Source of the DNA: Serpentinimonas maccroryi
GTDB lineage: Bacteria > Pseudomonadota > Gammaproteobacteria > Burkholderiales > Burkholderiaceae_C
Direction: 5' to 3'
NCBI RefSeq assembly: GCF_000828915.1
Contig: NZ_AP014569.1
Coordinates: forward strand, 2,480,001-2,544,000
DNA length: 64,000 nt
The stretch's first letter is position 1; each line of letters starts with the position of its first letter. This document shows, in pieces, positions 38,058-57,579 of the stretch. The translations under genes were made by a program, and so were the position numbers. Below the pieces are notes generated by a model. It was not told the DNA's origin, made no database searches, and saw only the letters and a list, made by a program, of their open reading frames with translations.

Positions 38058-38546
38058 CTAGAACGGAATATCGTCCTCCATGCCGTCAAAGTCGGTCGAG
38101 GCGGCAGCGGGTTTAGCGGCGGCGGGGCGGCTGGGGGCGGGCCGGTTGGCTGCCGGGGCGGCAGCGCGCGGGGCGGCGCCAGCGTCGTCTGAGGTGGGGG
38201 CGCCCATGCCTTCGCGGCCGCCAAGCAGCTGCAGCTCGGAGGCCACGATGTCGACCGTGTTGCGCTCGACGCCGGACTGGTCGGTGTACTTGCCGTATTT
38301 CAGGCGGCCTTCGACGTAGATCGGGCGGCCTTTTTTCACGTACTCGCCGGCGATCTCGGCCAGCCGCTCGTAGAAGGTGATGCGGTGCCACTGGGTGTCT
38401 TCGACCATTTCGCCGCTGGTGCGGTCTTTGCGCCGGCTGGTGGTGGCCAGTGTGACGTTGGCCACTGCTTGGCCCGAAGGCAGGTAGCGGATCTCGGCGT
38501 CGCGGCCGCAGTTGCCGACCAGTATGACTTTGTTGACGGATGCCAT
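38058..38546 (-). CDS. ssb: Single-stranded DNA-binding protein
   Basis: 162 residues. The OB fold starts [21 protein letters not shown] and includes the [21 protein letters not shown] core. An Ala/Pro-rich linker leads to the acidic tail [11 protein letters not shown], which recruits repair and replication partners. I used the ATG at 38546; a longer open frame upstream does not match. It is divergent from hoxA. Confidence 0.96.
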
Positions 38547-38716
38547 GGCGCGGGTGCTCCTCTCTGAGGGTGGGTGATGATGGGTGGGATGCGAAGGATT
38601 GTGCAGCATTTCAAACCCGGTTCTGCGGTTTGATTCGCAGCCCAAGCTGCAGCTGCAGGCCAAAGCGATCGCCGCCGCTGACCCGGCTGCGATCATTGGT
38701 TTGGCGCTTGCCTACA

Positions 38717-40228
38717 ATGGCCAGCGCGCAACCCTTGTTTCCCGATCGGCCCAGTGCTTTGACCACGCCCCCTTTGCCCCTCAACCCCGAGCCCACCGTG
38801 CTGGTGGTCGATGACGAACTGCGTTCGCAAGAAGCGATCCGGCGCACCCTGGAGGAAGACTTTCGCGTGCTCACCGCGGGCAGCGCCGAACAGGCCAGCG
38901 CCTTGCTCGAGCGCGAGCCGGTGGCGGTGCTGCTGTGCGACCAGCGCATGCCCGGCACCAGCGGCGTGGCTTTTCTCAGGCAGGTGCGCCAGCGCTGGCC
39001 CGAGGTGGTGCGCATCATCGTTTCGGGCTACTCCGAGAGCGCCGACATCGTGGCCGGCATCAACGAAGCCGGCATCTACCAGTACATCCTAAAACCCTGG
39101 GCGCCCGAGCACCTGCTCGACTCGGTGCGCAACGCGGTGGAGGCGCAAGCCCTGCAGCGCCAGACCGCGCGTCTGGATCTGGAGCTGCGCACCAGCACCC
39201 CGGCGCTGCGCCAGCGCGTGAGCCAGCGCCAGCAGCAGGTGCAGCAGGTGTACGGCTTCGAGCGCATCGTGCGTGCAGCGGGCAGCCCGCTCGACGGCGT
39301 CTGTGCGCTGGCGGCAAAGGTGGCGCGCTACGATTTGCCGGTGCTGGTGCTGGGCGAATCGGGCACCGGCAAGGAGCTGCTGGCGCGCGCCATCCACTAC
39401 GCCTCGCCGCGCGCGAGCGGCCCGTTCGTGGTCGAAAACTGCGCCGCCATCACCGACACGCTGCTCGAGTCCGAGCTCTTTGGCCACAAGCGCGGGGCCT
39501 TCACCGGCGCTTACGAAGACCACGTCGGGCTGTTTCAGCGTGCCCACGGCGGTACCGTGCTGCTCGACGAGATCGGCGAGACCTCGGCCGCGTTTCAGGT
39601 CAAGCTGCTGCGCGTGCTGCAAGAGGGCGAGGTGCGGCCGGTGGGTGCGGCGCGGCCGCTGCCGGTCGATGTGCGCGTGCTGGCTGCCACGCACCGCGAA
39701 CTCGAGCAGCGCGTGCGCGACGGGCTGTTTCGCGAAGACTTGTACTACCGCCTGGCTGCGGTCACCCTCACCATGCCGCCGCTGCGCGAGCGCATGGCCG
39801 ACATCGGGCCGATCGCGCAGCAGCTGCTGCACCAAGTGGCCGCCGAGCTGCGCCGCCCGGTGCCCGAACTGCCCGATGGCACCCTGGCTTGCCTGCTGGC
39901 TTACCCGTGGCCGGGCAACATCCGCGAGCTGCGCAACGAGATCGCGCGCGCGCTGGCGCTGCACGACGGCGCGCGGCTGCCCCCCGAGGTGTTCTCGCCG
40001 CGCGTGCTGCAAGGGCACGGCACCGGCAGCGCCGCGGCCCAGCTGGCGGCGCTGGTGCCCAGCAGCGGCACCTTGGCGCAGCGGCTCGAAGTGATCGAGG
40101 CCATGCTGCTGCGCGAAACGCTGCTGCGCCAGCGCTGGAACAAAACCCGTGCAGCGCAAGAGCTGGGCCTGTCGCGCGTGGGCCTGCGCAGCAAAATCCA
40201 GCGCTTTGGGCTGGAGCCCGGCGCATGA
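38717..40228 (+). CDS. hoxA: Hydrogenase transcriptional activator, NtrC family
   Basis: 503 residues. Receiver domain (about 25-145; VLVVDDE, the phosphorylated aspartate in VLLCDQRMPG, conserved KPW). Central AAA+ domain with GESGTGKELLAR, GAFTGA (sigma-54 contact) and PWPGNIRELRNE. C-terminal Fis-type helix-turn-helix (KTRAAQELGLSRVGLRSKI). It activates sigma-54 promoters of energy-converting hydrogenase operons, which are outside this window. In Ralstonia the non-phosphorylated form is active. It overlaps hoxB by 4 bases. Start at 38717 chosen from the domain boundary; a start upstream would read through the ssb side. Confidence 0.93.
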   Translation: MASAQPLFPDRPSALTTPPLPLNPEPTVLVVDDELRSQEAIRRTLEEDFRVLTAGSAEQASALLEREPVAVLLCDQRMPGTSGVAFLRQVRQRWPEVVRIIVSGYSESADIVAGINEAGIYQYILKPWAPEHLLDSVRNAVEAQALQRQTARLDLELRTSTPALRQRVSQRQQQVQQVYGFERIVRAAGSPLDGVCALAAKVARYDLPVLVLGESGTGKELLARAIHYASPRASGPFVVENCAAITDTLLESELFGHKRGAFTGAYEDHVGLFQRAHGGTVLLDEIGETSAAFQVKLLRVLQEGEVRPVGAARPLPVDVRVLAATHRELEQRVRDGLFREDLYYRLAAVTLTMPPLRERMADIGPIAQQLLHQVAAELRRPVPELPDGTLACLLAYPWPGNIRELRNEIARALALHDGARLPPEVFSPRVLQGHGTGSAAAQLAALVPSSGTLAQRLEVIEAMLLRETLLRQRWNKTRAAQELGLSRVGLRSKIQRFGLEPGA

Positions 40229-41220
40229 ACCTGCTCTGGTTGCAAGCCGGGGGCTGTGGCGGCTGCAGCATGTCGCTGCTGTGCGCCGACACCCCCGACT
40301 GGCACGGCCAGCTGCGCGCCGCCGACATCGAGCTGCTCTGGCACCCCTCGCTCTCGCTGGCCAGCGGCGCCGAGGTGCTGGAGCTGCTGCAGCGCTGCGC
40401 CGATGGCCGCCAGCCGCTCGATGCACTGTGCATCGAAGGCGCGCTGCTGCGCGGCCCGCACGGCACCGGGCGCTTTCATGTGCTGGCGGGCACCGGGGTG
40501 CCGATGATCGATTGGGTGCGCCGTCTGGCCGCCCGGGCGCGGCACGTGCTGGCGGTGGGCAGTTGCGCCGCGTGGGGCGGGGTCACTGCGGCGGGCGAGA
40601 ACCCGACCGACGCCTGCGGCCTGCAGTACGAGGACGAGCGCCCCGGTGGCCTGCTGGGCGCCGAATTTCGCAGCGCCAGCGGCCTGCCGGTGATCAACAT
40701 CGCTGGCTGCCCGACGCACCCGAACTGGGTGCTCGACACGCTGGCGGCGCTGGCGGCCGACAGCCTGGCTGCCGCCGACCTCGACGCGCTGGCGCGGCCG
40801 CGCTTTTATGCCGACCAGCTGGTGCACCACGGCTGCACGCGCAACGAGTACTACGAGTTCAAGGCCAGCGCCGTCAAGCCTTCCGATCTGGGTTGCCTGA
40901 TGGAGCACATGGGCTGCAAGGGCACCCAGGTGCACGCCGACTGCAACATCCGGCTCTGGAACGGCGAGGGCAGCTGCACCCGCGGCGGCTACGCCTGCAT
41001 CGCCTGCACCGAGCCGGGTTTCCAGGAGCCGGGCCACGCCTTTGCCCAGACGCCCAAGGTGGCGGGCATCCCGATCGGGCTGCCGACCGACATGCCCAAG
41101 GCCTGGTTCATCGCGCTGGCCGCGTTGTCCAAGAGCGCCACGCCCAAGCGCGTGCGCGACAACGCCGAAGCCGACCACCTGCTGCAAAAACCCGCGCTGC
41201 GGCGCACGCGGCTCAAATGA
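40225..41220 (+). CDS. hoxB: Regulatory [NiFe]-hydrogenase small subunit
   Basis: 331 residues. The N-terminus opens directly with LLWLQAGGCGGCSMSLL, the proximal cluster ligands, without a Tat leader, as expected for the cytoplasmic hydrogen sensor. Further iron-sulfur ligands appear in GSCAAWGG, NIAGCPTHP, HHGCTRNEYYEF and GCKGTQVHADCN. With HoxC it binds hydrogen and signals to HoxJ. ATGA overlap with hoxA indicates cotranslation; hoxC follows after 21 bases. Confidence 0.95.
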   Translation: MNLLWLQAGGCGGCSMSLLCADTPDWHGQLRAADIELLWHPSLSLASGAEVLELLQRCADGRQPLDALCIEGALLRGPHGTGRFHVLAGTGVPMIDWVRRLAARARHVLAVGSCAAWGGVTAAGENPTDACGLQYEDERPGGLLGAEFRSASGLPVINIAGCPTHPNWVLDTLAALAADSLAAADLDALARPRFYADQLVHHGCTRNEYYEFKASAVKPSDLGCLMEHMGCKGTQVHADCNIRLWNGEGSCTRGGYACIACTEPGFQEPGHAFAQTPKVAGIPIGLPTDMPKAWFIALAALSKSATPKRVRDNAEADHLLQKPALRRTRLK

Positions 41221-41241
41221 ACGCACCATGAACGCACGCCC

Positions 41242-42726
41242 ATGAGCCGCCTGATCGTTGGGCCCTTCAACCGCGTCGAGGGCGACCTCGAGGTCACGCT
41301 CGACGTGGCCGACGGCGCGGTGCGCGCGGCGCACGTGAACGCGCCCATGTACCGCGGCTTTGAGCAGATTTTGCACGGCAAACTGGCGCACGATGCGCTG
41401 GTGTTCGTGCCCCGCATCTGCGGCATCTGCTCGGTGTCGCAGTCGGTGGCTGGCGCGCGTGCCTTGGCCGATCTGGCTGGGGTGAGGCCGCCGCCCAACG
41501 GCCAGCACGCCATCAACCTGATGCTGGCGACCGAAAACCTGGCCGACCACCTGACGCACTTTTACGCCTTCTTTATGCCCGACTTCTGCCGGCCGGTGTA
41601 CGCCGACCGGCCTTGGCACGGTGAAGCCCGGCGCCGCTACTTGCCCGAACACGGGGTGCAGACCCGCCAGGCGCTGGCGGCGCGCCAGCGCGCCTTTACC
41701 CTGCTGGGCACGCTGGGCGGCAAGTGGCCGCACACGCAATCGATCGAGCCCGGCGGCAGCACGCGCGCCATCGACGCCGCCGAGCGGGTGCGGCTGCGCG
41801 CCAAATTGCGCGAATGGCGCGCCTTTCTGGAGCAGCAGCTGTTTGCCGACACGCTGGAGCGCGTGAGCGGCCTCGATAGCTTGGCCGGGCTGTGGCGCTG
41901 GCACGCCGCGCAGCCCGAGGCCGGCGATTTGCGTTTTTTCCTCACGCTGGCGCGTGACACTGGGCTGGCTGGTTTGGGGCTGGGCCCGGGGCGCTGCCTG
42001 AGCTACGGCACCTACCCGCAGCCCGACGGCACGCTGGCGCTGCCGGCCGGGGTCTGGCAGCAGCAGCCCGGTGGCGCGCAGGTGCTGGCGCTGCAGCCCG
42101 AGGCCATCAGCGAAGACGCCAGCCGCAGCTGGCTCGAGTCGGGCCCGGCGGGCGCTGAGGGCGCTGCGGTGGCGCTGCACCCCTGGAGCGGCCTGACCCG
42201 CCCGGCCCCCGACAAAGCCGATGCCTACACCTGGAACAAGGCGCCGCGCTGGGCCGGCCAGGTGGTGGAGACGGGGGCGCTGGCGCGACAGCTGGTGGCC
42301 GGGCAGCCGCTGGTGTGCGAGGCGGTGGCGCTGCATGGGTGCAGCGTGCTGACGCGGGTGCTGGCGCGCGCCCTCGAGCTTGCGCAAGTCTTGCCGCTGA
42401 TGGAGCGCTGGCTGCAAGCCATACAGCCCGGCGAGGCCTTCTGCGTGCCGGCGCCGCTGCCCGATGCCGGGCGCGGCATGGGCCTGACCGAGGCCGCGCG
42501 CGGCAGCCTAGGGCATTGGGTGGTGGTGCAGCAGGGCCGCATCGCCAACTACCAGATCGTGGCCCCCACGAGCTGGAACTTTGCCCCGCGCGACGCCGCC
42601 GGTGTGCCGGGCGCGCTCGAACAGGCGCTGGTGGGGGCGCCGGTGCGCGCCGGCGAAGACACGCCGGTGGCGGTGCAGCACGTGGTGCGCTCCTTTGACC
42701 CCTGCATGGTCTGCACGGTACACTGA
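41242..42726 (+). CDS. hoxC: Regulatory [NiFe]-hydrogenase large subunit
   Basis: 494 residues. The active site is held by RICGICSVSQ near residue 58 and by DPCMVCTVH at the very C-terminus. The protein stops right at the conserved histidine, so there is no cleavable tail and no maturation protease is needed. This is diagnostic of sensor hydrogenases (HoxC/HupV). Nickel insertion would need hyp genes outside the window. Confidence 0.95.
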   Translation: MSRLIVGPFNRVEGDLEVTLDVADGAVRAAHVNAPMYRGFEQILHGKLAHDALVFVPRICGICSVSQSVAGARALADLAGVRPPPNGQHAINLMLATENLADHLTHFYAFFMPDFCRPVYADRPWHGEARRRYLPEHGVQTRQALAARQRAFTLLGTLGGKWPHTQSIEPGGSTRAIDAAERVRLRAKLREWRAFLEQQLFADTLERVSGLDSLAGLWRWHAAQPEAGDLRFFLTLARDTGLAGLGLGPGRCLSYGTYPQPDGTLALPAGVWQQQPGGAQVLALQPEAISEDASRSWLESGPAGAEGAAVALHPWSGLTRPAPDKADAYTWNKAPRWAGQVVETGALARQLVAGQPLVCEAVALHGCSVLTRVLARALELAQVLPLMERWLQAIQPGEAFCVPAPLPDAGRGMGLTEAARGSLGHWVVVQQGRIANYQIVAPTSWNFAPRDAAGVPGALEQALVGAPVRAGEDTPVAVQHVVRSFDPCMVCTVH

Positions 42727-42795
42727 AAAGCCGCAGCCCACAAGGCGACACCCAGCACCCTTCCCATTCAGCCTCTCCAGCCTTCAGAGCCCCGC

Positions 42796-44190
42796 ATGGC
42801 AGCGCGCCCACCCTTGCCCGCCCGGGCTGTGCCCGAGCCCGCCAGCAGCCTCGAGCGCCTCGGTGCGCTCGAGGGCGTGGACGAATCCGCCTGGCTGGAT
42901 GTGATCCAGAAAATGGAGCAGGTCTATACCCAGTTGATCGACGACGAGGTCAAGCTGGAGCAAAAAAACGCCGAACTGGAGTTGCAGCAGCAGTTCATCG
43001 CCAGCGTGATGGCCTCGATGTCGGACGTGCTGGTGGTGTGCGACCGCAGCGGCCGCATCGAACAGGTCAACCGCGCCTTGTGCGAGCTGGTGGGGCGCAG
43101 CGAAGCCGAGCTGGTGGGCCAGCCGGTGGCGCGCTTGCTGGCCGATGCAGGCAGCCAAGAGCGGGCGCAGCGGGCGATGCAAGGCAGCACCCAGCAGGGG
43201 GTGGAGATCGAGCTCAACCTGCTCGACCGCCATGGGCAGCCGCTATCGGTCGATGCCAGTTGCACCCCGCGCTTCGGCGGTGCGCGGCGCCGTTTGGGCA
43301 CGGTGTGGGTGGGGCGCCCCACGGGCGAGCTCAAGCGCGCCTACCAAGAGTTGCAAGCGGCGCACGCGGCGCTCAAGAGCGCGCAACAACAGCTGTTGCA
43401 TTCCGAAAAAATGGCCTCGCTCGGGCAGCTGGTGGCCGGGGTGGCGCACGAGCTCAACAACCCCATCAGTTTCGTGCTCGGCAACACCCACGCGCTGCAA
43501 AAATACTGCAACCGCTTGCAAAGCTACTTGAGCGCGGTGCACCAGCAGCGGCCCAATGCCGATCTGGCCGACCTAGCCGAGCTGAGTGCGCTGCGCCAGC
43601 GCCTGCGCATCGACCGCTTGCTCGACGACCTGCCCGAACTGATCGCCGGCACGCTCGAGGGCGCGCAGCGCACCGCCGACATCGTGCAGGGGCTCAAGCG
43701 CTTTTCGGCCATGGACCCGCAGGAGCACCAGCCGCTGGAGCTGGCGGCGGTGATCGAGCTGGCGATCGCCTGGGTGCAAAAGGGGCAGGCGGAGCCGGTG
43801 CAGCTGCGCTGGCAGCGCCCGGCCACGGCGCTGCCGGTGCGTGGCAGCGCGGGCCAGTTGCAGCAGGTGCTGATGAACCTGCTGCAAAACGCCTGCTACG
43901 CCGTGGCCACCCAGCCCCCCGAGCGCCGCTGGGTAGAGATCCGCGCGACCGCCGACGCCAGCTGGGTGCGGGTGTGCGTGCTCGACGCCGGGGCGGGCAT
44001 TGCGCCCGAGCACCTGCCGCGCATTTTCGACCCTTTTTACACCACCAAACCGGTTGGGCAGGGCACGGGCTTGGGGCTGTCGATCAGTTACGGCATCGTG
44101 GAGGAACACGGCGGCCAGCTGCGCGCGCGCAACAGCGCCCACGCCGGGGCCGAGTTCGAGCTCAGCCTGCCACGGGCTTGCGCACCTTGA
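42796..44190 (+). CDS. hoxJ: Hydrogen-sensing histidine kinase
   Basis: 464 residues, soluble. A coiled coil (about 35-65) leads to a PAS domain (about 65-175, VLVVCDRSGRIEQVN), then the phosphorylated histidine in VAGVAHELNNPISF, and an ATPase domain with NLLQNACYA, GAGIAPEHLPRIFDPFYTTK and GTGLGLSISYG. It receives the hydrogen signal from HoxBC and controls HoxA. Order hoxA-B-C-J is that of Ralstonia. Its end overlaps the convergent small gene at 44162 by 29 bases. Confidence 0.93.
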   Translation: MAARPPLPARAVPEPASSLERLGALEGVDESAWLDVIQKMEQVYTQLIDDEVKLEQKNAELELQQQFIASVMASMSDVLVVCDRSGRIEQVNRALCELVGRSEAELVGQPVARLLADAGSQERAQRAMQGSTQQGVEIELNLLDRHGQPLSVDASCTPRFGGARRRLGTVWVGRPTGELKRAYQELQAAHAALKSAQQQLLHSEKMASLGQLVAGVAHELNNPISFVLGNTHALQKYCNRLQSYLSAVHQQRPNADLADLAELSALRQRLRIDRLLDDLPELIAGTLEGAQRTADIVQGLKRFSAMDPQEHQPLELAAVIELAIAWVQKGQAEPVQLRWQRPATALPVRGSAGQLQQVLMNLLQNACYAVATQPPERRWVEIRATADASWVRVCVLDAGAGIAPEHLPRIFDPFYTTKPVGQGTGLGLSISYGIVEEHGGQLRARNSAHAGAEFELSLPRACAP

Positions 44191-44455
44191 AGCGCAGCGC
44201 GCTCACCGGCTGCCCGCTGGCCTGCAAGGCCTGCAGCAAGGCCGGGGCGAGCTGACGCAGCTTGCTGCCCACGGCGGGGTTGTGGACCAGCAGGCACCAG
44301 ACGCCGTCGTCGAGCGGGCCGGCGCTCACCTGATCGCGCAGCGGCGGCGGCAGCAGCGGCAGCACCAAGCGCAGCAGCTGCTGCGACTGCGCCACGCGCT
44401 GCGTGATGGCCGACAACACGCTGGAGGCGCGCACGGCTTGTTCGAGCGGAATCAT
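44162..44455 (-). CDS. DciA-like (DUF721) small protein
   Basis: 97 residues resembling the DUF721/DciA family that helps load the replicative helicase: LEQAVRASSVLSAITQRVAQ, WCLLVHNPAVGSKLRQLAP and a C-terminal VSALRFKVRKP. In this family the KH-like fold is typical. It converges on hoxJ and overlaps its 3' end by 29 bases. It sits 74 bases downstream of the protease gene that ends the carboxysome operon and is probably a separate unit. Confidence 0.7.
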   Translation of the reverse strand: MIPLEQAVRASSVLSAITQRVAQSQQLLRLVLPLLPPPLRDQVSAGPLDDGVWCLLVHNPAVGSKLRQLAPALLQALQASGQPVSALRFKVRKPVAG

Positions 44456-44482
44456 GGGGCCTGAGTATCGCTGTTTTATCGC

Positions 44483-44519
44483 TGTTTTGGAGCCTCAAGG
44501 CGGGCACGACCGATTGCCT
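44483..44519. repeat. Partial second copy of the 30.4-kb repeat
   Basis: 37 bases with 34 identities to 30421-30457 (shared core TCAAGGCGGGCAYGACCGATT). As in the first copy, it lies immediately downstream of a minus-strand stop codon, here that of the protease gene. Confidence 0.7.
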
Positions 44520-44529
44520 CGCCAGCCGC

Positions 44530-45357
44530 TCAGTCCAGCCAGCGCCCTAGGTAGGCCGCCAGCAGCTCTTGCACCGCGCTGGCCTTGATCACCAGCCCGA
44601 GGTCGATCATCTCGCTGCCCAACACCGTGCCGCCGACGCTGGCCGGTACCGGCACCGGCACCAGGCGGCTGGCTTCTTCGCGAAAAAACACCGCCGCCAC
44701 CACGCCGGCAAACCAAGGCGCACTCTGGCTGGTGTCGTCGGGCGCGCCGTCGCTGCGGCGGCGGCGCACGAACACCGGCGAGCCGCTGGAGCCCGGATAG
44801 ACGGCGGCGTCGATCAGAAACTCGGCCCGGCCCTCGAAGTCCAGCGCCAGCGCCGTGGCGGTGCTGCCGCGGCGCAGAATCGGCAGCGCGTTGACCTGAT
44901 CCCAGACGCCGCTCGGGTAGCCGACAAACAGCACGTCTTCGAGCGCGTCGAAGGCGGCGCTGTCCGCCGCGTTGGGCATGGTGCGGCTGTCGATGGGCTG
45001 CACGTACAGCTCCACGCCTTGGGCCTGCGCGGCCTCGAGCAAGGGCCGCAGCGGCACCAGCGCCAGATCGACCTCGGGCTGCGGGTGGCAAAACCAGGCC
45101 TGCGGGAAGTCTTCGATGTCGATCTGGAAGCGCTGCCCGATCAGCGGCTGGCCATTGTGGGCGCGCGTGAACACCAGCGCGCCGCGCTGCACGCCCTCGA
45201 CCAGGTGCCGGTTGGTGACCACGAAGCGGCTGCGGCCGCGCGTGTGTTGGTGCTCGATCACGAAGGCGGTGCCCGAACCCAAGCTGCCGTCGGCGAGCAC
45301 GGTATCGACGCGCACGGTGTGGAACAGCAGGCGTTTGGCGGCGGTATCGACGTGCAT
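44530..45357 (-). CDS. Trypsin-like serine protease, last gene of the carboxysome operon
   Basis: 275 residues with the chymotrypsin-type triad in order: histidine in FVVTNRHLVEG (near 50), aspartate in EVDLALVPL (near 98), serine in YPGSSGSPVFV (near 190). A short N-terminus leads into SLGSGTAFVIEH. There is no signal peptide or membrane helix, so it should be cytoplasmic, unlike DegP-type proteases, and it lacks a PDZ domain. Its ATG lies 4 bases after the csoS1D stop, with GAGGA in the end of csoS1D as ribosome site, so it is almost certainly cotranscribed with the shell genes. I know of no established protease of alpha-carboxysomes. A role in processing shell or scaffold proteins, or in quality control, is inference. 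Confidence 0.85.
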   Translation of the reverse strand: MHVDTAAKRLLFHTVRVDTVLADGSLGSGTAFVIEHQHTRGRSRFVVTNRHLVEGVQRGALVFTRAHNGQPLIGQRFQIDIEDFPQAWFCHPQPEVDLALVPLRPLLEAAQAQGVELYVQPIDSRTMPNAADSAAFDALEDVLFVGYPSGVWDQVNALPILRRGSTATALALDFEGRAEFLIDAAVYPGSSGSPVFVRRRRSDGAPDDTSQSAPWFAGVVAAVFFREEASRLVPVPVPASVGGTVLGSEMIDLGLVIKASAVQELLAAYLGRWLD

Positions 45358-45361
45358 GGTT

Positions 45362-46018
45362 TTAGTCCTCGCCTAGGGGGGCGGCGTTTAGGTTGATGGT
45401 GGCGATGGCGCGCTCGGCCGCCTCCAGCGCCTGCTCCGCTTCGGCTTCGCTGCCCATCATCGTCAGGCGGCCAAAGGAGCCGAAGGGGCGCACGTCGATC
45501 AGGGTGACGTTGGCGGCTTTTTCGGCCTGGTTGGCGGCATAGACCACGTAGCCCGCCGGCTCGACCTCGAAGATGAACATGCTCTTGCCCGGCAGCAGCA
45601 TCGAGCCTTTGCGGAACTGGCGGTTGATCAGGGTGGCGTGGTCGGGCGTGAGGGCGCAGATGACTTCGCTCCAGGCGATGCGGCACGGCAGGCGCTCGGA
45701 TTCCGCTGCGCCCAGCTGCTGCAGGATCAGCTGCCCGGCCTGCGCCACCTCGCTCTGGTTGCGGTAGTGGATTTCCATCGAGCCAAAGGCGCGCTCCACC
45801 ACCTGCTCGCCCATGTGCACGTTGCTGCTCTTGAGCGCGATGTCGGACAGGCGGTGCACCGCCATCCCCGGCGCCACCTCGACCCACAGGCAGGCGTCGC
45901 CCGGCACCGGCAAAAAGCCCTGCGACGAGGTGGCGAGGTACGAGGCCAGCTGCGGCTGCAGCGAGTCGATCAGGACGTAGGTGCGCAGCGACACCGGCGC
46001 GCCGCCGGCGGTCTTCAT
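45362..46018 (-). CDS. csoS1D: Carboxysome shell pseudohexamer, tandem BMC (CsoS1D)
   Basis: 218 residues with two fused BMC domains. Segments such as [54 protein letters not shown] and [13 protein letters not shown] correspond closely to CsoS1D. Trimers form double-layered hexagonal tiles with a gated central pore thought to pass larger metabolites such as RuBP. It starts inside the end of cbbO (ATGA overlap of 4 bases) and is followed 4 bases later by the protease. Confidence 0.93.
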
Positions 46019-48387
46019 CGGGTCAGGCCCAGGTAGAGCTGCGGCAGGCGTTCGGGCAGGCGCTCGACGCGGTCGATGACGCTGTAGTGGCCGCTGCCAA
46101 AGATGCGCTCGACGTAGCCGTCGGCACGCGGATCGAGCGACAGGCCGTAGCACATGGTGCCGTCGCGCTGCAACTCCTGCACCGCGCGCTGGGCGTCGAG
46201 GCGCAGGTACTGCGGGTCGGTGACGTCGCGGTCGGCGGGCGCGCCGTCGGTGATCACCAGCACCAGCCGTTTGCGCTGCGGCTGGCGCCGCAGTTGCGCG
46301 CCGGCGTGGCGCAGCGCCGCGCCCATGCGGGTCGAGTAGCGCGCCTGCATCGCCGCCAGCCGCGCCTGCGCCAGTTCGGCAAAGGGCTCGTCGAAGCCTT
46401 TGAAGCGGTGGTAGTGCACGTCGTGGCGGCCGTCGGAGCAAAAGCCGTGCAGGGCAAAGGGGTCGCCGATGCGGCGCAGCGTCTCGGCCAGCAAGATGGT
46501 GGCGGCGCGCGTGAGCTCGAGCACGGTCTGCTCTTGGCCGCGCACCTTTTCGTTGGCCGATTCCGACAGGTCGAGCAACACCAGCAAGGCCAGATCGCGC
46601 TCGTGGCGCTGGCGCCGCTGCATGATGCGCGGGTCGGGCTGGCGCCCCAGGCGCCAGTCGAGCAGCGCTTGCAGCGCCGGGTCGAGGTCGATGTCGTCGC
46701 CGTCTTCGATGCGCCGGATGCGCTGCAGGCCCTGCGGCGCCAGCGCCTCGATCAGGTATTTGAGGCGCGCGATCACCGGCTTGTTCTGTTCCAACACGGC
46801 TTGCACCGGCGCAGGGTCGGCGAGTTCGACGTGGCGCTCCTGCACCGTCACCCAGTCGGGCCGGTGCAGCTGGATTTGGTAGTCCCACTCGGGGTAGTGC
46901 ACCGGGTCGGCCAGCGGCGCGCGGCCCAGCAGCGAGTTGATGGTCACGCCTTCTTGGTCCAGCCAGTATTCGGTCGGCAGGGTCCAGATTTCTTGCGCGT
47001 CGTCGCCGGCGTATTCGACGTCGACTTCGTTGACCATCTCCATGATGTTGACTTTGCGCCGCACCTGCTGGCGGCTGTCCCAGTCCGCTTGCAGCGCCTG
47101 CGCCTCGTCGTAGCGCGCCGCTTGCCAGAGGTAGCGGTTGTCGTCGCGGTAGGGGGCGCGCAGGGCGTCGTGGCGGGCTGAAAACGGCGCCCAGCCGTGT
47201 TGCAGGCGCCAGTGCTCGAGGCTCGCAGCCAGCTCGAGGCCGGTGCTCAGGCTGCGCTGGGCGTCGTCGCGATCGGGCCAGGCGGCCCAAGCCGCCAGAC
47301 CCTGCTGCACCCAAGGATGGGGGTCGGGGCGGGCGGGCTCGAGCCACGCGCGCACCAAGCGGTGCAGCAGGTCGCCGCAGTGGGCGGGTTCGGCCACCGG
47401 CGGCGGCTGCAGGCGCAACCAGAGCGCAGCCAGCCCGGGGAAGCGCGCGATCGCCAAGGCCTCGACGCGCGCGTCTTCGACCGCTTCGACCAAGGCGCGC
47501 TGCAGGGGCGACAGGCCGCTGTCGTCGAGCGCCGTCTGGCCAAACACGAGGTGCGCGGCGCAGTGGGCGGCGGCGGCGCGGTAGAGCTCGAGCGCGCTCA
47601 CCGGGGCGGCCTCGGTGCTGCCGTCGCTGCTCGGGTTGGCGGGCACGTCGTCGTAGGCGTCGGCGAGGTGGATCACCATCTGGTCGATGAACGGGCGCAA
47701 GCCTTGGCGCTGCTCGTAGTCGCCGGCGGTCGGGCGCAGCACGAAGTCGCGGCCCCAGAGCGCACGCAAATACATATTCAAGCGGCGCTGCACATCGACC
47801 AGCAGCGTGCCCTTGCGCTCTTGCTGCAACACCGCCAGCGCGTCCGGGCTGGCGAGGCCAAAGTAGCGCTGCTGGCCTTCAAAATCGCTGCGGTAGGCGT
47901 TGGCGCCCCACATCACCCAGCGCCGCAGCCCACCCAAGGTGAGCTGGCCCAGCAGGCGGTCGAGCTGCTCGAGCATCGGGCGCAGACCGCGCGGGGCTTG
48001 CGCCAGCACCAGTTCGAGCACGCTCAGGTACTGACGCCACAGGCTGGCGTCGCCCAAACGCTCGGCCACCGTGCCGGAGGTGCCGGCGATCAAGGCCAGC
48101 ACCTGGCCCGAGGTGCGCGAAGCCATGCCGAGCAGGAACTGCACCAGCCCCGGTAGCTCTTCCTCGCCCACGGCGCGCGCCAGGTGCGGCATCTGCTGCA
48201 GGTAGGTGAGCACCAAGTCTTCGCCGCGCCCGAGTTGGTGCAGCGCCCGCGCGCCCTTGAGGTAGTTGTCGAGCCCGCGCGGCGACATGGCGCGCGCAGC
48301 CTCCTGCCACGCTGCGGGCAGCAGCTCCTGCGCCCGGGGGGGCAGTTCGGCGAGCAGCTCGTGCTGGTCGTGCAGGTGGATGCTCAT
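46015..48387 (-). CDS. cbbO: RuBisCO activase accessory protein CbbO
   Basis: 790 residues. The C-terminus has a von Willebrand A domain with a MIDAS motif (LLDLSESAN near 610), and the long N-terminal part is helical. CbbO binds inhibited RuBisCO and, with the AAA+ ring of CbbQ, removes tight-binding sugar phosphates. It directly follows cbbQ, with 49 bases between them. Confidence 0.93.
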
Positions 48388-48436: not shown

Positions 48437-49432
48437 TTAAAAGTAGGTGCCCACGGCGGCGTCGAGCACGTCGCGCATGTCGGCGTCGTCGGTGATCGGG
48501 CGCACCAGCGCCATGCGGCAGGCCGCCGCAGGCGCCACGCCGCGCGCGATCAGGGTGCCGGCGTAGATCAGCATCCGGGTCGAAAGCCCCTCGTCGAGGC
48601 CGTGGCCCTTGAGGTTGCGTGCGCGCTCGCCGATGTGCACCAGCCGCCCCGCGGTTTCGGCATCGACGCCGGACTCGTGGGCCACGATCTCGACTTCGAG
48701 CGCGTGCTCGGGGTAGCCAAAATCGAGCGCCGCAAAGCGCTGTTTGGTGGACTGTTTGAGGTCCTTCATGAGCGACTGGTAGCCCGGGTTGTACGAGATC
48801 ACCAGCACAAAGTCGGGGTGGGCGTGCAGCAGCTCGCCTTTTTTCTCCAGCGGCAGCAGGCGCCGGGCGTCGGTCAGCGGGTGGATCACGACCGTGGTGT
48901 CTTGGCGCGCCTCGACCACTTCGTCGAGGTAGCAAATCGCGCCGTGGCGCGCCGCCAGCGTCAGCGGCCCGTCTTGCCAGCGTGTGCCCTGGGCGTCGAG
49001 CAAAAAGCGCCCGATCAGGTCCGATGCCGTCATGTCTTCGTGGCAGGCCACGGTGACCAGCGGCCGATTCAGGCGCCAAGCCATGTGTTCGATGAAGCGC
49101 GTCTTACCGCAGCCGGTTGGGCCTTTGACCATGACCGGCATCCGGGCGCCGTAGGCGGCCTCGAACAGCTCGACCTCGTCGGCGACGGGGCGGTAAAAGG
49201 GCTCGTGTGTGGTGCGGTAGGCGCTCAGGGGGTCGCTGCTGCTGCCAGCGCTGGGCGGGGTGTCAAGGCTTGGGCGCATGGCGGCGTGGCTGCTGTGGGC
49301 GGCGCCGGCTGGGGTGCGGCCTGTGGGCGCAGCGGAGTATGTAGGCGCTTGCGCCGGGTGCATGCCGGCGAGGTCGAGGTGGCGCGCCGGGTAGCTGCGT
49401 TCTGGGTAGTTGCGCGTGGGGGTGCTGATCAT
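48437..49432 (-). CDS. cbbQ: RuBisCO activase CbbQ (MoxR-type AAA+ ATPase), with N-terminal extension
   Basis: 331 residues. The ATPase core starts near residue 70 with [16 protein letters not shown], followed by Walker [12 protein letters not shown], Walker [13 protein letters not shown] and the C-terminal [12 protein letters not shown]. Other CbbQ proteins are about 265-275 residues. The extra 60 or so residues at the N-terminus ([13 protein letters not shown], then Pro/Ser/Ala-rich) are predicted disordered and may serve as a tether to the shell. The ATG at 49432 is the start of the open frame; a shorter start at the internal Met (MRPSLDT, about residue 52) is possible. Confidence 0.92.
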
Positions 49433-49452: not shown

Positions 49453-49719
49453 CTAGTCGGGCCAGACGCGCTGCGGGAACAGCTCGCCGGCGCTGCTGCG
49501 TGGGGTTGAGGCGCTGGCGCTGGCGTCGGGCTGTGGCTGGACGGGTGCTGGTGCGCGCGGTTTGGGCGCTGCACGCGGCGCGCGCGCCGGCCGTGTGTCG
49601 GCAGACGCATCGGCCTTGGGAGCCAGCGTGGGCGGCGCCTTGCTGGCCGATTCGGCCCCAAGCTCAGGCTGAGCGCTGCGGCGCACGCTGGCGGCGAGTT
49701 GGGTTTTGAGTGCGGTCAT
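49453..49719 (-). CDS. mcdB: Carboxysome positioning adaptor McdB, alpha type
   Basis: 88 residues, low complexity and rich in Ala, Pro, Arg and Lys. It follows mcdA with a 4-base overlap (ATGA). The C-terminus reads [12 protein letters not shown], so a tryptophan lies near the end, as reported for McdB proteins. Position, small size, disorder and C-terminal Trp identify it rather than detailed similarity. It should link carboxysomes to the McdA ATPase on the nucleoid. Nothing in it looks like ParB. Confidence 0.78.
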
Positions 49720-50357
49720 TTCAGTATCTCCTCGAGTACGGCTTCGATTTCGGCCCGGGCCGCGGCCGCTTGGCGCCCCAGCGTGTGCACGGTTTGCCCC
49801 TGCAGCGCGGCGCTGCGGTAGATCGCGCGCCGCCGCACCACCGATTGCAGCAGCTCGAGCCCAAACTCGGCCACCGCCTCGTTCATGGCCTGCGACCAGG
49901 CGCGATCGGGCTCGGCTTGGTTGAGCACAAAGGCGGCGCGCCAGGCGCTGCGGCCGGCCCCGGCTTGCTCGAGCAAACGCACCAAATGCCAGCTGGCCCA
50001 CAGGTCGAGCGCCGAGGGCAGCACCGGCACCAGCACCCGATCGACCCGGCCCAGCAAGGCCTGCAAGCCGTCTTGCTGCAGCGCCGGCGGGCAGTCCCAG
50101 ACCACGTAGTGCGGGCTCGGCTGCGATTCGTCGGCCAGCATCTGGGCCGCCTCGGCGCCATACACCGCCATCGGCAAACCCGCCGCACCGCTCTGCGCCG
50201 CCCATTGCAAGGCCGAACCCTGCGGGTCGAGGTCCACCAGCACCGTGGGGCCGCGTCGTGCCAACGCCGCAGCCAGGTTCACGGCCAGCGTGGTCTTGCC
50301 GGTGCCGCCCTTGTGGTTGATCAGGGCGAGCTGAAACGGTGCGGCGCGGCGGCTCAT
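49716..50357 (-). CDS. mcdA: Carboxysome positioning ATPase McdA (ParA family)
   Basis: 213 residues. It has the deviant Walker [17 protein letters not shown], the [10 protein letters not shown] motif and YVVWDCPPA (Walker B). In carboxysome operons this ParA-type ATPase coats the nucleoid and spaces carboxysomes by a Brownian-ratchet mechanism with McdB. It lies between acRAF (gap of 7 bases) and mcdB (overlap of 4). Confidence 0.9.
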
Positions 50358-50364
50358 GGCGCTG

Positions 50365-50682
50365 TCAGGCCGTGGCCAACCGCCCCAGTTCAGCCGCCAG
50401 CGCGTACTCGGCCGGGCTCAAGGCCGCGCCCGTGGCGCTGAGCGTGACGTTGACGTAGGTGCGGCCAAAGTTGATGTTTTGTGCCGTCACGCCGCTGGAC
50501 TCTTGCAGTTCGGCGAGCCGATCCAGAAAAGTCCGCGTTTGGGCATAACTGGCGAACTCGAAGCGCCGAAACAGGCTCGGCGGGCGTTCGCTAAAGCTCC
50601 AGCCCGGCGCGGCAGCCGCCAACGCCGTGGCCTCGCTGGCCGTGGCCGGGTTGCCGCTGGGCGTTGGGTTGAGCGCTTGCAT
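50365..50682 (-). CDS. RuBisCO assembly factor acRAF (pterin dehydratase-like)
   Basis: 105 residues of the PCD-like fold: [21 protein letters not shown], then [21 protein letters not shown] and [10 protein letters not shown]. The catalytic His-His-Pro motif of true dehydratases is missing, as expected for the chaperone that promotes assembly of form IA RuBisCO. The ATG at 50682 is preceded by AAAGG at 7 bases. It lies between csoS1 and mcdA, the usual place. Confidence 0.88.
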
Positions 50683-50701: not shown

Positions 50702-51040
50702 TCAGCTGCGGGTCGAGGTGATTTCGAGGTCGCGGCCACCGCCGTCGGCGTCGGGGCGCTCGGGCAAAATGCCTTCGACTTCGTTGTGCACGCGCGCGAT
50801 GATGTGCGCGGCCACCAGCCCGTCGCCCACGCGTTCGCAGGCGTCGGCGCCGGCACGCACCGCTGCGTTGACGGCGCCGGTCTCGCCGCGCACCAGCACC
50901 GTGACGTAGCCGCCACCGACGAACTGGCGCCCGATCAGGCGCACTTCGGCGGCTTTGGTCATGGCGTCGGCGGCCTCGATGGCCGGCACCAGGCCGCGTG
51001 TTTCAATCATCCCGAGGGCGATTCCTGTGCTCGTAGCCAT
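50702..51040 (-). CDS. csoS1B: Carboxysome shell hexamer CsoS1, longer (CsoS1B-like) form
   Basis: 112 residues with a BMC domain (IALGMIETRGLVPAIEAADA, then RLIGRQFVGGGYVTVLVRG). It has a 14-residue C-terminal extension (ERPDADGGGRDLEITSTRS) not present in its upstream twin, as in CsoS1B proteins. Residues 5 to 92 match the twin without change at the protein level, and 218 bases are identical. It forms facets of the shell. Confidence 0.93.
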   Translation of the reverse strand: MATSTGIALGMIETRGLVPAIEAADAMTKAAEVRLIGRQFVGGGYVTVLVRGETGAVNAAVRAGADACERVGDGLVAAHIIARVHNEVEGILPERPDADGGGRDLEITSTRS

Positions 51041-51331
51041 CGTGTTGCCTCTTTGTCTTTAAAAAGTTGAGTGGATTCAAGCGCTCGGGGCCACGGGCAG
51101 AATGCCTTCGACCTCGTTGTGCACGCGCGCGATGATGTGCGCGGCCACCAGCCCGTCGCCCACGCGTTCGCAGGCGTCGGCGCCGGCACGCACCGCTGCG
51201 TTGACGGCGCCGGTCTCGCCGCGCACCAGCACCGTGACGTAGCCGCCACCGACGAACTGGCGCCCGATCAGGCGCACTTCGGCGGCTTTGGTCATGGCGT
51301 CGGCGGCCTCGATGGCCGGCACCAGGCCGCG
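50768..51331 (-). repeat. Tandem gene duplication within the two csoS1 genes
   Basis: Bases 50768-50998 match 51101-51331 with one difference (T at 50780, C at 51113). The stretch 50781-50998 equals 51114-51331 exactly over 218 bases, third codon positions included. The gene ends differ. This points to recent gene conversion or duplication. Confidence 0.93.
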
Positions 51332-51373
51332 GGTTTCGATCATGCCCAGGGCAATACCTGTGGTTGCTGCCAT
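51077..51373 (-). CDS. csoS1A: Carboxysome shell hexamer CsoS1 (CsoS1A/C form)
   Basis: 98 residues, a single BMC domain of standard length ending EGILPVAPSA. It is the major facet protein of the shell. An AAGGAGAA site precedes its start. 36 bases separate it from the longer csoS1 downstream. Only two single-domain copies are seen, where the Halothiobacillus operon has three. Confidence 0.95.
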   Translation of the reverse strand: MAATTGIALGMIETRGLVPAIEAADAMTKAAEVRLIGRQFVGGGYVTVLVRGETGAVNAAVRAGADACERVGDGLVAAHIIARVHNEVEGILPVAPSA

Positions 51374-52097: not shown

Positions 52098-53627
52098 TTA
52101 GTGCCCAGCCACCGTGGCTGCGGGCGCATCGGCCCATTCGAGCCGCTGGCCGCTGTGGCGCTCGCTCACCGCCACGCGGCAGTGCAGCAGACCGCGCTCG
52201 GCCAAGTGGGCAAAACGCTCCCGCGCCGCCTGCGCCACGCGCAAACCGCGCGCCACCGCGCGCTCGCGCGAACCCGGCACACGCGCGCTGTAGGTGAAAT
52301 GCACCAGCAGCGGCAGCGGCAAACCGCGCTGCACGTTCAGGCCCTGAAAGATGCGCGCGCCCACGTCGAGGTCGGCGGCACCTTCTTCGACCGTGTCGAG
52401 GTGGGCAAAATAAAACTGGTTGCGCAACTGCAGCGAGGGCACGGCCTCGCCGGCGCAGACAAAGGCTTCGTCGTGGCCGATCACGGCGTAGCGCCCGCCG
52501 TGGTGCTGTTGCACGTAGTCGAGCTGCGAGAAGTTGCCGACCAGCCAGGCTTGGGCCAAGCCCAGCAGCCCGTGTGGGAGGTGGTAAAGCGCAGCGCCGC
52601 CGAGCTCGGTGGCATAGCGCTGCAGCGCAGCATCGAGCGCCTGCTGCGCTGCATCGGCGCTCAGGCCCAGCGTGGCGCGGTACAGCGCGGCGCTGTCGAG
52701 GTAGCGCTCGGCGCGCAACTGGCCGCTGGCGTCGGGCAGGTGGATGCGGATCGCGTCGCAATCGGTGTCAACCCCGAGCAGCAGCACCTGGGGCGCGGCG
52801 CCGTGGCCATAGGTGTTGTCCACCGCCACTTGCAGCGCGTGCAGGCGCTCGATCGCGGCGGCCACAGCGGCGGCGTCGTGGCTGCCGTGGGCGGCGCAAC
52901 CTTGGTCACAGGGGGCCGAGCTGCTGTAGTGGTAGGCCGCGACTTTGAGGTAGTCGAGCCGGTCGCCGCCTTCGATGGCCCCGGTGAGGCGCTCGAGCTC
53001 GCGCTGGGTCCAGTCGGCCACGTCGTGCTCGACGTCAAACAGCGCGCCGGCGTAGGCCTTGACCCAGACGAAAGGCGCGGGCGCGGTGCGCAGCACAAAG
53101 GGCAGCAGGCCCTGCAAGCGGCCGTCGGCGCAGGGGCTGATGTCGATGGTGTGAAAACCCAAGGCGTGCCAGTGCACGCTCTGCAGCGTCATGCGCGGCT
53201 GCCAGCAGGCTTGGTCGATGCCGGCGTGATCCACCGAAGCGGCAATGGTCGCAAACAGGCAGTGTGCGTACATTGCCGACATATCGACACCCTGCACCCA
53301 GGCGCTGGCCAGCCAGTCGGCGGGCAACTCAAAGCCCAGCCGCTCGAGCGCCAGCGCTTGCGCCTGCTGCGCAAAGTCGCGCTCGTGCTGCAGATTGGAG
53401 AGTGTGCGCAACACATCGGTGACGGCAGCAAAGCGGCCGCGCAGCGTCAGCTCGTAGTGGCGCAGGCAGTCGTTGAGCGCCGCATCCACCAGCGCATGTT
53501 GTGGGCGCTCTGGGACCAGCGGCGCACCAGCCGACCGGGTGCGCGCCGACGCCCCTGCCCGTGCGGTGGGCGCAGGGTGGCTGCTGGCGCGTGCGCTCAG
53601 GGCCAGACGGCGTTGCAGGGTGTTCAT
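52098..53627 (-). CDS. csoSCA: Carboxysomal beta-type carbonic anhydrase CsoSCA (CsoS3)
   Basis: 509 residues. The ATG at 53627 gives an N-terminus typical of the family (MNTLQRRLALSAR); a TTG further up is less likely. Zinc ligands are all present: Cys166 in DISPCADGR, His233 in AYHYS and Cys244 in DQGCAAHG, with Asp168 and Arg170 completing the active-site dyad. The C-terminal half is the degenerate catalytic repeat. It converts bicarbonate to CO2 inside the shell. The disordered N-terminus (about 1-50) would bind RuBisCO. Confidence 0.95.
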   Translation of the reverse strand: MNTLQRRLALSARASSHPAPTARAGASARTRSAGAPLVPERPQHALVDAALNDCLRHYELTLRGRFAAVTDVLRTLSNLQHERDFAQQAQALALERLGFELPADWLASAWVQGVDMSAMYAHCLFATIAASVDHAGIDQACWQPRMTLQSVHWHALGFHTIDISPCADGRLQGLLPFVLRTAPAPFVWVKAYAGALFDVEHDVADWTQRELERLTGAIEGGDRLDYLKVAAYHYSSSAPCDQGCAAHGSHDAAAVAAAIERLHALQVAVDNTYGHGAAPQVLLLGVDTDCDAIRIHLPDASGQLRAERYLDSAALYRATLGLSADAAQQALDAALQRYATELGGAALYHLPHGLLGLAQAWLVGNFSQLDYVQQHHGGRYAVIGHDEAFVCAGEAVPSLQLRNQFYFAHLDTVEEGAADLDVGARIFQGLNVQRGLPLPLLVHFTYSARVPGSRERAVARGLRVAQAARERFAHLAERGLLHCRVAVSERHSGQRLEWADAPAATVAGH

Positions 53628-53675
53628 GGTTGGCGCTTCAAGGTCAAACGAGGTGGACAAAGGCGGTGGTGGCGC

Positions 53676-55535
53676 TCAGCCGCGCGCGCCGCCCGATACC
53701 GTGACCGTGGCGCCGCGCCCGGTGCTGCCCGAGGAGCCGGTGACTGGGCTGGGCGGAATTTCGGGGCGCACTTGTTCGCGCACCTGCTCGCGCGCTGCCC
53801 GTGCATCCATGCCCACGCCGCGCGGCTGGCCGCGCAGCGTCGGGTTGCGTCCTTGGGACCAAGCGCCTTCGGTGCTCGAGACGCGGCTGTTGCCGCTCCA
53901 GGCGTCGCCGGTGACGCGGCTGCCCTGCTGGCGCCCGTCGCCCGAGATCTGGCTGGAGGCCGTTGCAGGCGGTGTGGCCGGGGCGGCGGGTGCGGTCGGC
54001 GCGGCTGGCGTGCGATCGCTGGCAAGCAGGCGCCCAGTGGCACGGGGGCTGGAGCCGTGGCGGAACTCGGGCGTGCCGGTGATCATGCCTTGGGCCTTGA
54101 AGCCGGGGCCGGTGATGCGCTCGCTGGCGCCGCCGCTGCCGCTGGCCACGCCGGTGACCGAGCGCACGCGCTCGGGGGCGCGCTGGCGCGCCGGCGGCAC
54201 GATGCTAAAGCCCTGTGGCGCCGTGGGCACCTGCTCCAGCGCCAGCTCGGGGTGGCGGGTGAGCCAGGCGCCGTCGATGCGGCACGAGGCGTGCTGGTTG
54301 TCGGGCCCGATGTAGGCCGTGCCGGTGACCGGCTCGCAGGCGCCGCGTTCATCACCCGTGACACCGCCGCCGCCCACGCCGGGCCGATCGCCGGTGAGCG
54401 ACTGCGGCCGCCAGCTGGCTGGCTGCACTTGCGTTTTCGCGCTGCTGGAGCGGGCATACTGGGTGCCGGTGATCGGGCGCTGCGCGCCGGCTTCGCCGCC
54501 GGTGACGCTGCCACCGCTGTGCAGCGTCACGCCGGTCACGGTCTGCTGGCCACGGCTGGACATCACGCTGACCTTGTGCGGGCCGCCGCGCAGCCCCTCG
54601 TCTTGGCACAGCTGCAGCGTTTCGGCGGCCAGGTACTGCGTGCCGGTGATGCCGCGGCAAGCGCCGGTCTGATTGCCGGTGACCACCGGTTTGGGATCGA
54701 CTTCGGTGCCGCTCACGGTCTGCTGTTGCACCGTGGTGAGCGACTGCCCGACTTTGGGCGGGCGCGGTTGCGGCCGCGCTTCGCACCAGGCTTCGAACTG
54801 CTCTTGGCCAATGTATTCGGTGCCGGTGACGTTGCGGCAGGTGCCGGGTTCTTGGCCGGTGACCTTGCCGCTGCGCTCGACTTGGGTGCCGGTGACTTCT
54901 TGTCCGCTCAGGGTGTGGCCGGCTTCGACCTTTTGCAGCACCGGCCGGGTGCGCCCGCTGGGGCGCATGGCGGCCGAATGGCTGCTGGCTTCGGTGCGGC
55001 CAGTGAGCGAGGCCACCAAGCGTTTTTGCATTGCCAGCTGCCGACCGGTGGCGCCTTGCTCGAGCGCGGTCTGCCAATCGGCGCGGTCGGGCATCGAAGC
55101 GGCGATGCGCGTGGCATTGGCCACGCGCTGGATGCCGGGTTTGCCCACGGCGGCCAGCGCTTGGCGCCGTGCGCGGGCCAAGGTGCGGCCCGTGGGGGCG
55201 GCGTAGGGGTTGCGCACAGGCGCCGCTGCAACACTCACGGCTTCAGCAGGCGCAGCGTTGTTGCAGCCGCAGCCGCCCGCAGCGCCGGTGCAAGCGCATT
55301 CGTTGGCTGCATCGGCGCGCGGCAGTTCAATCTGCGGGCTTGGGCTCGTATGGGCAGCGGCCAGTGCGGCCCCGCCCAAGCCCGAACGGCTGCCCGATTG
55401 GGCCTGCGCCAGCAGCGACTGCGCGCTGGCGCGGCTCGCCACCTTGCCCGCCGTGGCCATGGCTTGGCGGCGCAGGCGCGCCAGTTCGCGCCCGGAAAGC
55501 GTCACGTCGCCGTGTTTGACAGTGCTAGGCCCCAT
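53676..55535 (-). CDS. csoS2: Carboxysome scaffold protein CsoS2, compact form
   Basis: 619 residues, intrinsically disordered. The N-terminal region has three basic repeats that bind RuBisCO (GRELARLRRQAMATAGK, GRTLARARRQALAAVGK, and a weaker GRQLAMQKRLVASLTGR). The middle region has only about four repeats built on VTGT/ITGT-Q/E/A-Y, with CRNVTGTEYI, CRGITGTQYL and CEPVTGTAYI; the third lacks the cysteine. The C-terminal region anchors to the shell (VTGDAWSGN, GAWSQGRNP, REQVREQV). Halothiobacillus CsoS2 has 869 residues and more middle repeats. It lies 109 bases after cbbS, past a terminator-like hairpin. Confidence 0.93.
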   Translation of the reverse strand: MGPSTVKHGDVTLSGRELARLRRQAMATAGKVASRASAQSLLAQAQSGSRSGLGGAALAAAHTSPSPQIELPRADAANECACTGAAGGCGCNNAAPAEAVSVAAAPVRNPYAAPTGRTLARARRQALAAVGKPGIQRVANATRIAASMPDRADWQTALEQGATGRQLAMQKRLVASLTGRTEASSHSAAMRPSGRTRPVLQKVEAGHTLSGQEVTGTQVERSGKVTGQEPGTCRNVTGTEYIGQEQFEAWCEARPQPRPPKVGQSLTTVQQQTVSGTEVDPKPVVTGNQTGACRGITGTQYLAAETLQLCQDEGLRGGPHKVSVMSSRGQQTVTGVTLHSGGSVTGGEAGAQRPITGTQYARSSSAKTQVQPASWRPQSLTGDRPGVGGGGVTGDERGACEPVTGTAYIGPDNQHASCRIDGAWLTRHPELALEQVPTAPQGFSIVPPARQRAPERVRSVTGVASGSGGASERITGPGFKAQGMITGTPEFRHGSSPRATGRLLASDRTPAAPTAPAAPATPPATASSQISGDGRQQGSRVTGDAWSGNSRVSSTEGAWSQGRNPTLRGQPRGVGMDARAAREQVREQVRPEIPPSPVTGSSGSTGRGATVTVSGGARG

Positions 55536-55644: not shown

Positions 55645-55971
55645 TCAGCGATAGACCACGAAGGCCAGACCCTGGCTTTGCGAGTAGTTGTCGTAGGCCA
55701 CGAAGCGCACCACGTGGTTTGGGAACTCGCGGTGGCAGGCTTCGACCTCGGTCAACACCGCATCCACGCTTTGTTCGCCAAACAGCGGCAGCTTCCACAT
55801 GTACCAAAAGCTGCTGGTGGCGGCGGTGCCGCGCTCGGTGTGCTCGACCGCTGGGTTCCAGCCTTGGGCAATCGCGTAGGCGATCTGGCGCCGCACCTGC
55901 TCGGGCTTCATCGGCGGCAGGTAGGAAAAGGTCTCGTAGCGCTGGGTTTGTTGGTAGGCTTGTACGGCCAT
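55645..55971 (-). CDS. cbbS: RuBisCO small subunit, form IA
   Basis: 108 residues. Family segments are [38 protein letters not shown] and [11 protein letters not shown]. The length and lack of the longer loop fit the carboxysomal form IA. It caps the L8S8 holoenzyme. It starts 53 bases after cbbL. Confidence 0.97.
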
Positions 55972-56024
55972 GATGGGCTCCTGTCAATGCTCGATGGGGT
56001 TGCTGGAAGGTGTGGACGCGGGCA

Positions 56025-57446: not shown

Positions 57447-57579
57447 GCTTGCTCCTGTTTGTAGAAGGGTGGAACCAAGTACCTGCACCCTTGCTGTGTT
57501 GAGTGCCGATCCAATGGTTTGCATTGTTGGCCCCTTTTTTGTTTGATGCAAGTAAATTGTTCAGACTGTCATGTTTTAT

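Follow-up and report, generated by a model that had tools for sequence, protein, structure and literature searches.

A putative cytosolic serine protease encoded with the CO2-concentrating genes of one proteobacterial alpha-carboxysome lineage

The alpha-carboxysome operon of Serpentinimonas maccroryi ends in a gene for a trypsin-like protease that, on comparative grounds, is quite likely dedicated to the CO2-concentrating mechanism (CCM) of one proteobacterial alpha-carboxysome lineage. The gene lies in a 64,000-nucleotide stretch of contig NZ_AP014569.1, referred to here as the window. The protein has a known protease fold, and what is new is its undescribed, lineage-marking role at a carboxysome locus. 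It probably belongs to the CO2-concentrating machinery as a dedicated component that has so far gone unstudied.

The protease gene and its operon

The protease gene (44530..45357, minus strand) has an ATG start and encodes a predicted cytosolic protein of 275 amino acids. The gene upstream is csoS1D (45362..46018, minus strand), which encodes a tandem BMC pseudohexamer shell protein of 218 amino acids (BMC PF00936; CcmP model 3e-67). The coordinates agree with an earlier note on this DNA, which placed the protease start 4 bases after csoS1D on the same strand, and GAGGA, a Shine-Dalgarno-like sequence, is located at the csoS1D end ahead of the protease. The csoS1D gene itself overlaps cbbO by 4 nt. 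Because of this gene spacing, the protease is probably translated from one mRNA with cbbQ-cbbO-csoS1D. A promoter/terminator scan of 44100-46100 gave no promoter-like site and was uninformative.

The other operon genes are also on the minus strand. These are cbbO, the VWA adaptor of the Rubisco activase (46015..48387; identified by sequence and Pfam); cbbQ, a MoxR AAA+ Rubisco activase with a lineage-specific N-terminal tail (48437..49432); a gene for an 88-amino-acid protein positioned after mcdA (49453..49719); McdA, the ParA-type carboxysome positioning ATPase (49716..50357); acRAF, between the csoS1 pair and mcdA (50365..50661); two csoS1 hexamer shell genes (51373..51077 and 51040..50702; NF053791); csoSCA, the carboxysomal carbonic anhydrase (52098..53660; synteny and tblastn across loci); the scaffold csoS2 (53676..55535; PF12288 in the host genome); and cbbS and cbbL of form IA Rubisco (55645..57551). 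The 88-amino-acid protein has no Pfam match, and we take it to be McdB-like from its position and C-terminal FPQRVWPD. The complete order is cbbL-cbbS-csoS2-csoSCA-csoS4A-csoS4B-csoS1-csoS1-acRAF-mcdA-mcdB-cbbQ-cbbO-csoS1D-protease. The protease was said to close the operon, which is accurate for the CO2-fixation genes but not necessarily for the transcript, since a DciA-like gene (44455..44162, minus strand) follows on the same strand 74 bases past the protease. Convergent to this end of the operon is a hydrogen-sensing-like gene set (38540..44190, plus strand), which we take from the translations to be a sigma-54 response regulator, small and large hydrogenase-like subunits and a PAS histidine kinase.

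The only Pfam match of the protease is Trypsin_2 (PF13365; 2.4e-12, 48.2 bits against a gathering cut-off of 27.6), a family matched by 24 of 24 members scanned. The catalytic residues His51 (NRHLV; codon 45205..45207), Asp97 (VDLAL; 45067..45069) and Ser191 (YPGSSGSPVF; 44785..44787), all on the minus strand, are intact as first reported, and together with the PGSSGSP context they are kept in all of the best 80 of 91 relatives. Across these relatives, 76 of the 275 alignment columns are invariant. Conservation at the N-terminus begins with residue 1, and the sequence there does not resemble a signal peptide. No PDZ domain was found in a Pfam scan, and the structure model ends at the C-terminal helix of the protease, all of which bears out the description of a protein without signal peptide or PDZ. 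No oligomerisation module was seen in the scan or the model. A dN/dS of 0.07-0.25 points to purifying selection on the gene. The product is predicted to be a catalytically competent, cytosolic, chymotrypsin-fold serine protease.

Distribution across genomes and loci

About 760 whole genomes were sampled regardless of the protease, by class (369) and by order (399) with few in both. Presence of csoS2 was scored by PF12288, and proteins over 450 bits were counted as protease orthologs. Of these genomes, 115 have csoS2. All 8 protease orthologs are in csoS2-positive genomes and none is in the ~650 csoS2-negative ones (Fisher p 2e-7), where the search scored at most 6 candidates per genome and may have missed a few orthologs. 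The other 107 csoS2-positive genomes (about 93%) have no ortholog, so the protease is dispensable for carboxysomes in general, and a universal or core carboxysome component was rejected.

A tree of CsoSCA, CsoS4B, acRAF and CsoS1 was built from 141 loci, drawn from nearly all csoS2-positive genomes and from the scan described below. A single branch with 100% SH-aLRT separates the 37 protease-bearing loci (8 from the unbiased sample and 29 found by the scan) from all 104 protease-negative loci. A first cso tree of 70 loci agrees with this. The protease is absent from none of the 8 unbiased members of the lineage, and its distances follow those of the cso proteins (Mantel r 0.80; 0 of 5000 permutations as high). 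Most protease-negative loci have csoS1D without adjacent cbbQ-cbbO, or cbbQ-cbbO without csoS1D. Single-branch placement and occurrence in 8 of 115 genomes indicate that the gene marks one proteobacterial cso lineage, and from these comparisons it appears to be an inherited, retained marker of that lineage, which spans alpha-, beta- and gammaproteobacteria. The earlier note considered that the gene might occur only in this strain or be scattered independently of cso operons; instead, 8 of 8 orthologs are in csoS2-positive genomes and in one cso lineage. The tie of a cytosolic protease to the alpha-carboxysome is thus strongly supported by linkage, by restriction to csoS2-positive genomes and by the single lineage, but not as a general component.

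A GTDB-wide scan by two conserved peptide patterns, and thus biased to close relatives, gave 91 confirmed places, of which the best 80 were kept. These relatives are 62-83% identical and are found in beta-, gamma- and alphaproteobacteria. Among the relatives kept, the closest one with a named genome is from Serpentinimonas barnesii (83% identical), and the genera listed include Thiobacillus, Thiomonas, Nitrosomonas, Nitrobacter, Tepidimonas, Thioalkalivibrio, Thermomonas, Nevskia and Hydrogenophaga, along with Rhodospirillales. Among the best 80, cso genes are on the protease stretch in 66, and 13 have SbtA/SulP/LCIB-like inorganic-carbon genes without cso genes in reach. Linkage to cso and/or bicarbonate-uptake genes (SbtA/SbtB/SulP, LCIB-like carbonic anhydrase) is found in 79 of the 80, and the remaining locus is a truncated contig.

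Four gene orders recur. The first is cbbQ-cbbO-csoS1D-protease. The second, of Thioalkalivibrio type, is cbbQ-cbbO-protease-SbtA, with csoS1D not seen nearby. The third is cbbO-protease-(100-aa protein)-SulP-SbtA-SbtB-csoS1D. In the fourth, csoS1D is followed at some distance by SulP-protease-(100-aa protein); these loci often also carry SbtA-SbtB along with a divergent LCIB-like carbonic anhydrase gene. Loci of Thiobacillus type have the protease between SulP and SbtA/SbtB. The expectation that the gene would recur beside csoS1D in other lineages holds for many genera, with csoS1D the nearest recognised upstream gene in 43 of the best 80 (cbbO in 14, SulP in 11), but not for loci without a nearby csoS1D. 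A csoS1D-specific link was rejected because of such protease loci (cbbO-protease-SbtA) and because many csoS1D loci have no protease. Since Thioalkalivibrio-type and Thiobacillus-type loci place the protease by other genes, it appears to be part of a wider CO2-concentrating island and not tied to csoS1D as such. The immediate neighbour changes, yet the protease stays in the island, which is a stronger sign than fixed adjacency would be.

Several neighbours in these loci were also observed. A conserved ~100-aa protein (L024:10860-11162 and 43 other loci) is usually directly 3' of the protease and was not found in the window's genome. It has no Pfam, NCBIfam or PADLOC match, and its predicted structure of three helices gives no hint of function; it could regulate or inhibit the protease. 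A divergent 382-aa LCIB-like carbonic anhydrase homologue (PF18599, below the cut-off) is encoded at L024:6610-7758 (minus strand) and similar loci, and it adjoins SulP and the protease in Thiobacillus-type loci. The SulP beside the protease (L024:7859-9979 and relatives) has a long insert that splits the Sulfate_transp match in two.

Proposed role and candidate substrates

The protease would perform ATP-independent limited proteolysis on a flexible segment of a CCM protein. Such proteolysis would control assembly, activity or turnover of the carboxysome, the activase or bicarbonate uptake, and would not be bulk degradation. The earlier note put forward CsoS2, CsoSCA and misassembled shell proteins as possible substrates; comparison of loci contributes two further candidates, the CbbQ tail and the bicarbonate transporters.

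Of the cso proteins compared, CbbQ alone shows a clear difference specific to the lineage, namely its tail. In the window it covers about residues 1-70 (49223..49432, minus strand), with an RSYPAR motif followed by an A/S/P-rich linker. The tail is present in 68 of 68 protease-bearing loci scored and in 0 of 26 protease-negative loci scored. It is some tens of residues long and carries R-T-Y-x-P-R or a closely similar motif (64 of 68 by pattern), ahead of a low-complexity A/S/P-rich linker. In most of the 26 protease-negative loci CbbQ starts right at the AAA+ core, and one of these rows has a chance R-T-Y-x-P-R pattern match 5' of its start codon. One possible function of the tail is as a targeting peptide. 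Because it is confined to protease-bearing loci, this disordered segment is ranked as the best single candidate substrate, though a tentative one. The tail, the protease and the csoS1D and cbbQO order are all traits that a single lineage has inherited, so finding them together counts as one evolutionary event and not as a set of independent tests. A fuller mechanism, in which the protease would cut the R-T-Y-x-P-R tail of CsoCbbQ, mature or regulate the activase and switch it between a carboxysome-targeted and a free state, is less likely still. If true, carboxysome biology would gain in this cleavage its first dedicated proteolytic step, as far as the papers found show. The linkers of CsoS2/CsoSCA are speculative candidates held with the same low confidence as the tail, as are SulP/SbtA/SbtB; the remaining probability goes, speculatively, to quality control or other substrates.

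The bicarbonate transporters are central to an alternative, in which the protease regulates inorganic-carbon uptake and not the carboxysome by trimming or removing SulP/BicA-like, SbtA or SbtB proteins at plentiful CO2. We regard this as possible but doubtful. In 52 of the best 80 of 91 loci, SulP, SbtA/SbtB and an LCIB-like gene accompany the protease, often as direct neighbours, and in Thiobacillus-type loci the protease is inside the transporter cluster, away from cso genes. However, Serpentinimonas, Nitrobacter and several Thiomonas loci have no adjacent transporter gene, the SbtA genes of the window's genome are elsewhere (G000 2550847 and 111066), and in Tepidimonas, Thioalkalivibrio and window-type loci cbbO or csoS1D stays the upstream neighbour of the protease. 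Somewhat less probable is a role in quality control, in which the protease would act on misfolded Rubisco, shell or activase protein much as HtrA does, but in the cytosol. The fold and the active-site motif DAAVYPGSSGSPVF resemble those of HtrA proteases, but general quality control has no need for restriction to one cso lineage, and the missing PDZ or oligomerisation module also argues against it.

In another reading, which we think very improbable, the protein is a stress or phage-defence protease (PADLOC candidate PDC-S45) that acts by itself and hitchhikes in the operon lineage. Rapid gain and loss is usual for defence genes, and the retained linkage speaks against this. The PDC-S45 match (6e-82) is stronger still for relatives outside cso loci, and these relatives have varied contexts. 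In the best 80 of 91, however, CCM linkage persists despite neighbour rearrangement and a location among defence genes was not found; the lack of loss in the 8 unbiased lineage members, the tight translational spacing and the strong purifying selection also count against this reading. Catalytically dead trypsin-like proteins exist as a precedent for a binding module without protease function, but a triad and G-x-S-G motif invariant in 80 of the best 80 of 91 relatives make this hardly credible here.

Comparison with known carboxysome loci and proteases

The operon shares acRAF, McdA, CbbQ, CbbO and CsoS1D with published alpha-carboxysome loci, whose descriptions do not name a protease (PMC4207490, PMC4633670, PMC12918739). 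Papers on alpha-carboxysome loci, activases and structure make no mention of it (PMC4207490, PMC4633670, PMC9164163, PMC12918739, PMC8718961), though a supplementary gene table may list it. A search of largely open-access literature on carboxysomes with protease or peptidase gave no report describing this protease. An unexplained peptidase has been remarked on in GRM3 metabolosome loci (PMC4207490). In the published description of H. neapolitanus, csoS1D is called the terminal gene (PMC4633670). Carboxysome engineering and models rest on Halothiobacillus and cyanobacteria, where published loci list no such gene. A lineage-wide protease (Thiobacillus, Thiomonas, Nitrosomonas, Nitrobacter, Thioalkalivibrio, Tepidimonas, Serpentinimonas) suggests post-translational control that is hidden from these model systems.

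Trypsin_2 (PF13365) is recognised by a profile match above the curated cut-off and by the H-D-S order of the triad, but this very broad family is uninformative on carboxysomes. The AlphaFold model of the protease is of chymotrypsin type (pLDDT 83, pTM 0.84). A PDB sequence search gave no significant match, and Foldseek ranks DegP, DegQ, DegS and V8/Spl proteases as the nearest structures, at 13-17% identity, with DegP at E 9e-9 and a TM of about 0.5. The likeness to HtrA/Deg is in the fold and the DAA-x-x-x-G-x-S-G active-site context; the protease differs in its missing PDZ and signal peptide, an identity of about 13-17% and a TM-score of about 0.5. On the model, it would work in an HtrA-like manner, with an HtrA-like fold, and it is not classed as HtrA/Deg because the PDZ is missing. 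By analogy with HtrA, the small residues beside the presumed S1 site suggest a small or aliphatic P1 preference. Trypsin-like zymogen activation via a new N-terminus is not expected, as the DAAVYPGSSGSP segment is without the Asp of trypsin's GDSGGP. V8/Spl-type glutamyl endopeptidases (S1B) share the G-x-S-G-S-[PA]-V motif and fold similarity. They are secreted and have propeptides, whereas the cso-locus protease has no signal peptide.

A likeness in size and signal-less architecture is seen with PDC-S45, a phage-defence candidate that matches the protease over its full length (residues 1-267, 272.8 bits, E 6.3e-82) in a profile library that gives no curated cut-off for it. Relatives at 30-44% identity are outside cso loci, and they occur in kinase-WD40/AAA contexts, a hydrogenase-maturation operon and a repeat-rich toxin-antitoxin region. 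One is within a run of hypA, hypB, protease, peroxiredoxin-like, hypF and hypC, read by translation (L136:6173-11364). Distant homologs were rejected as further cso proteases, with 0 of 8 examined near cso genes. Because the wider family is scattered in other contexts and matches a phage-defence model, its ancestral function was probably not carboxysomal, and this cso lineage probably acquired its protease in a single recruitment of a cytosolic protease that had another role. The wider-family tree has some long branches, and only the cso grouping is taken from it: compared with PDC-S45, the cso members form one group in the wider family (support 85), tied to CCM genes and not to defence genes.
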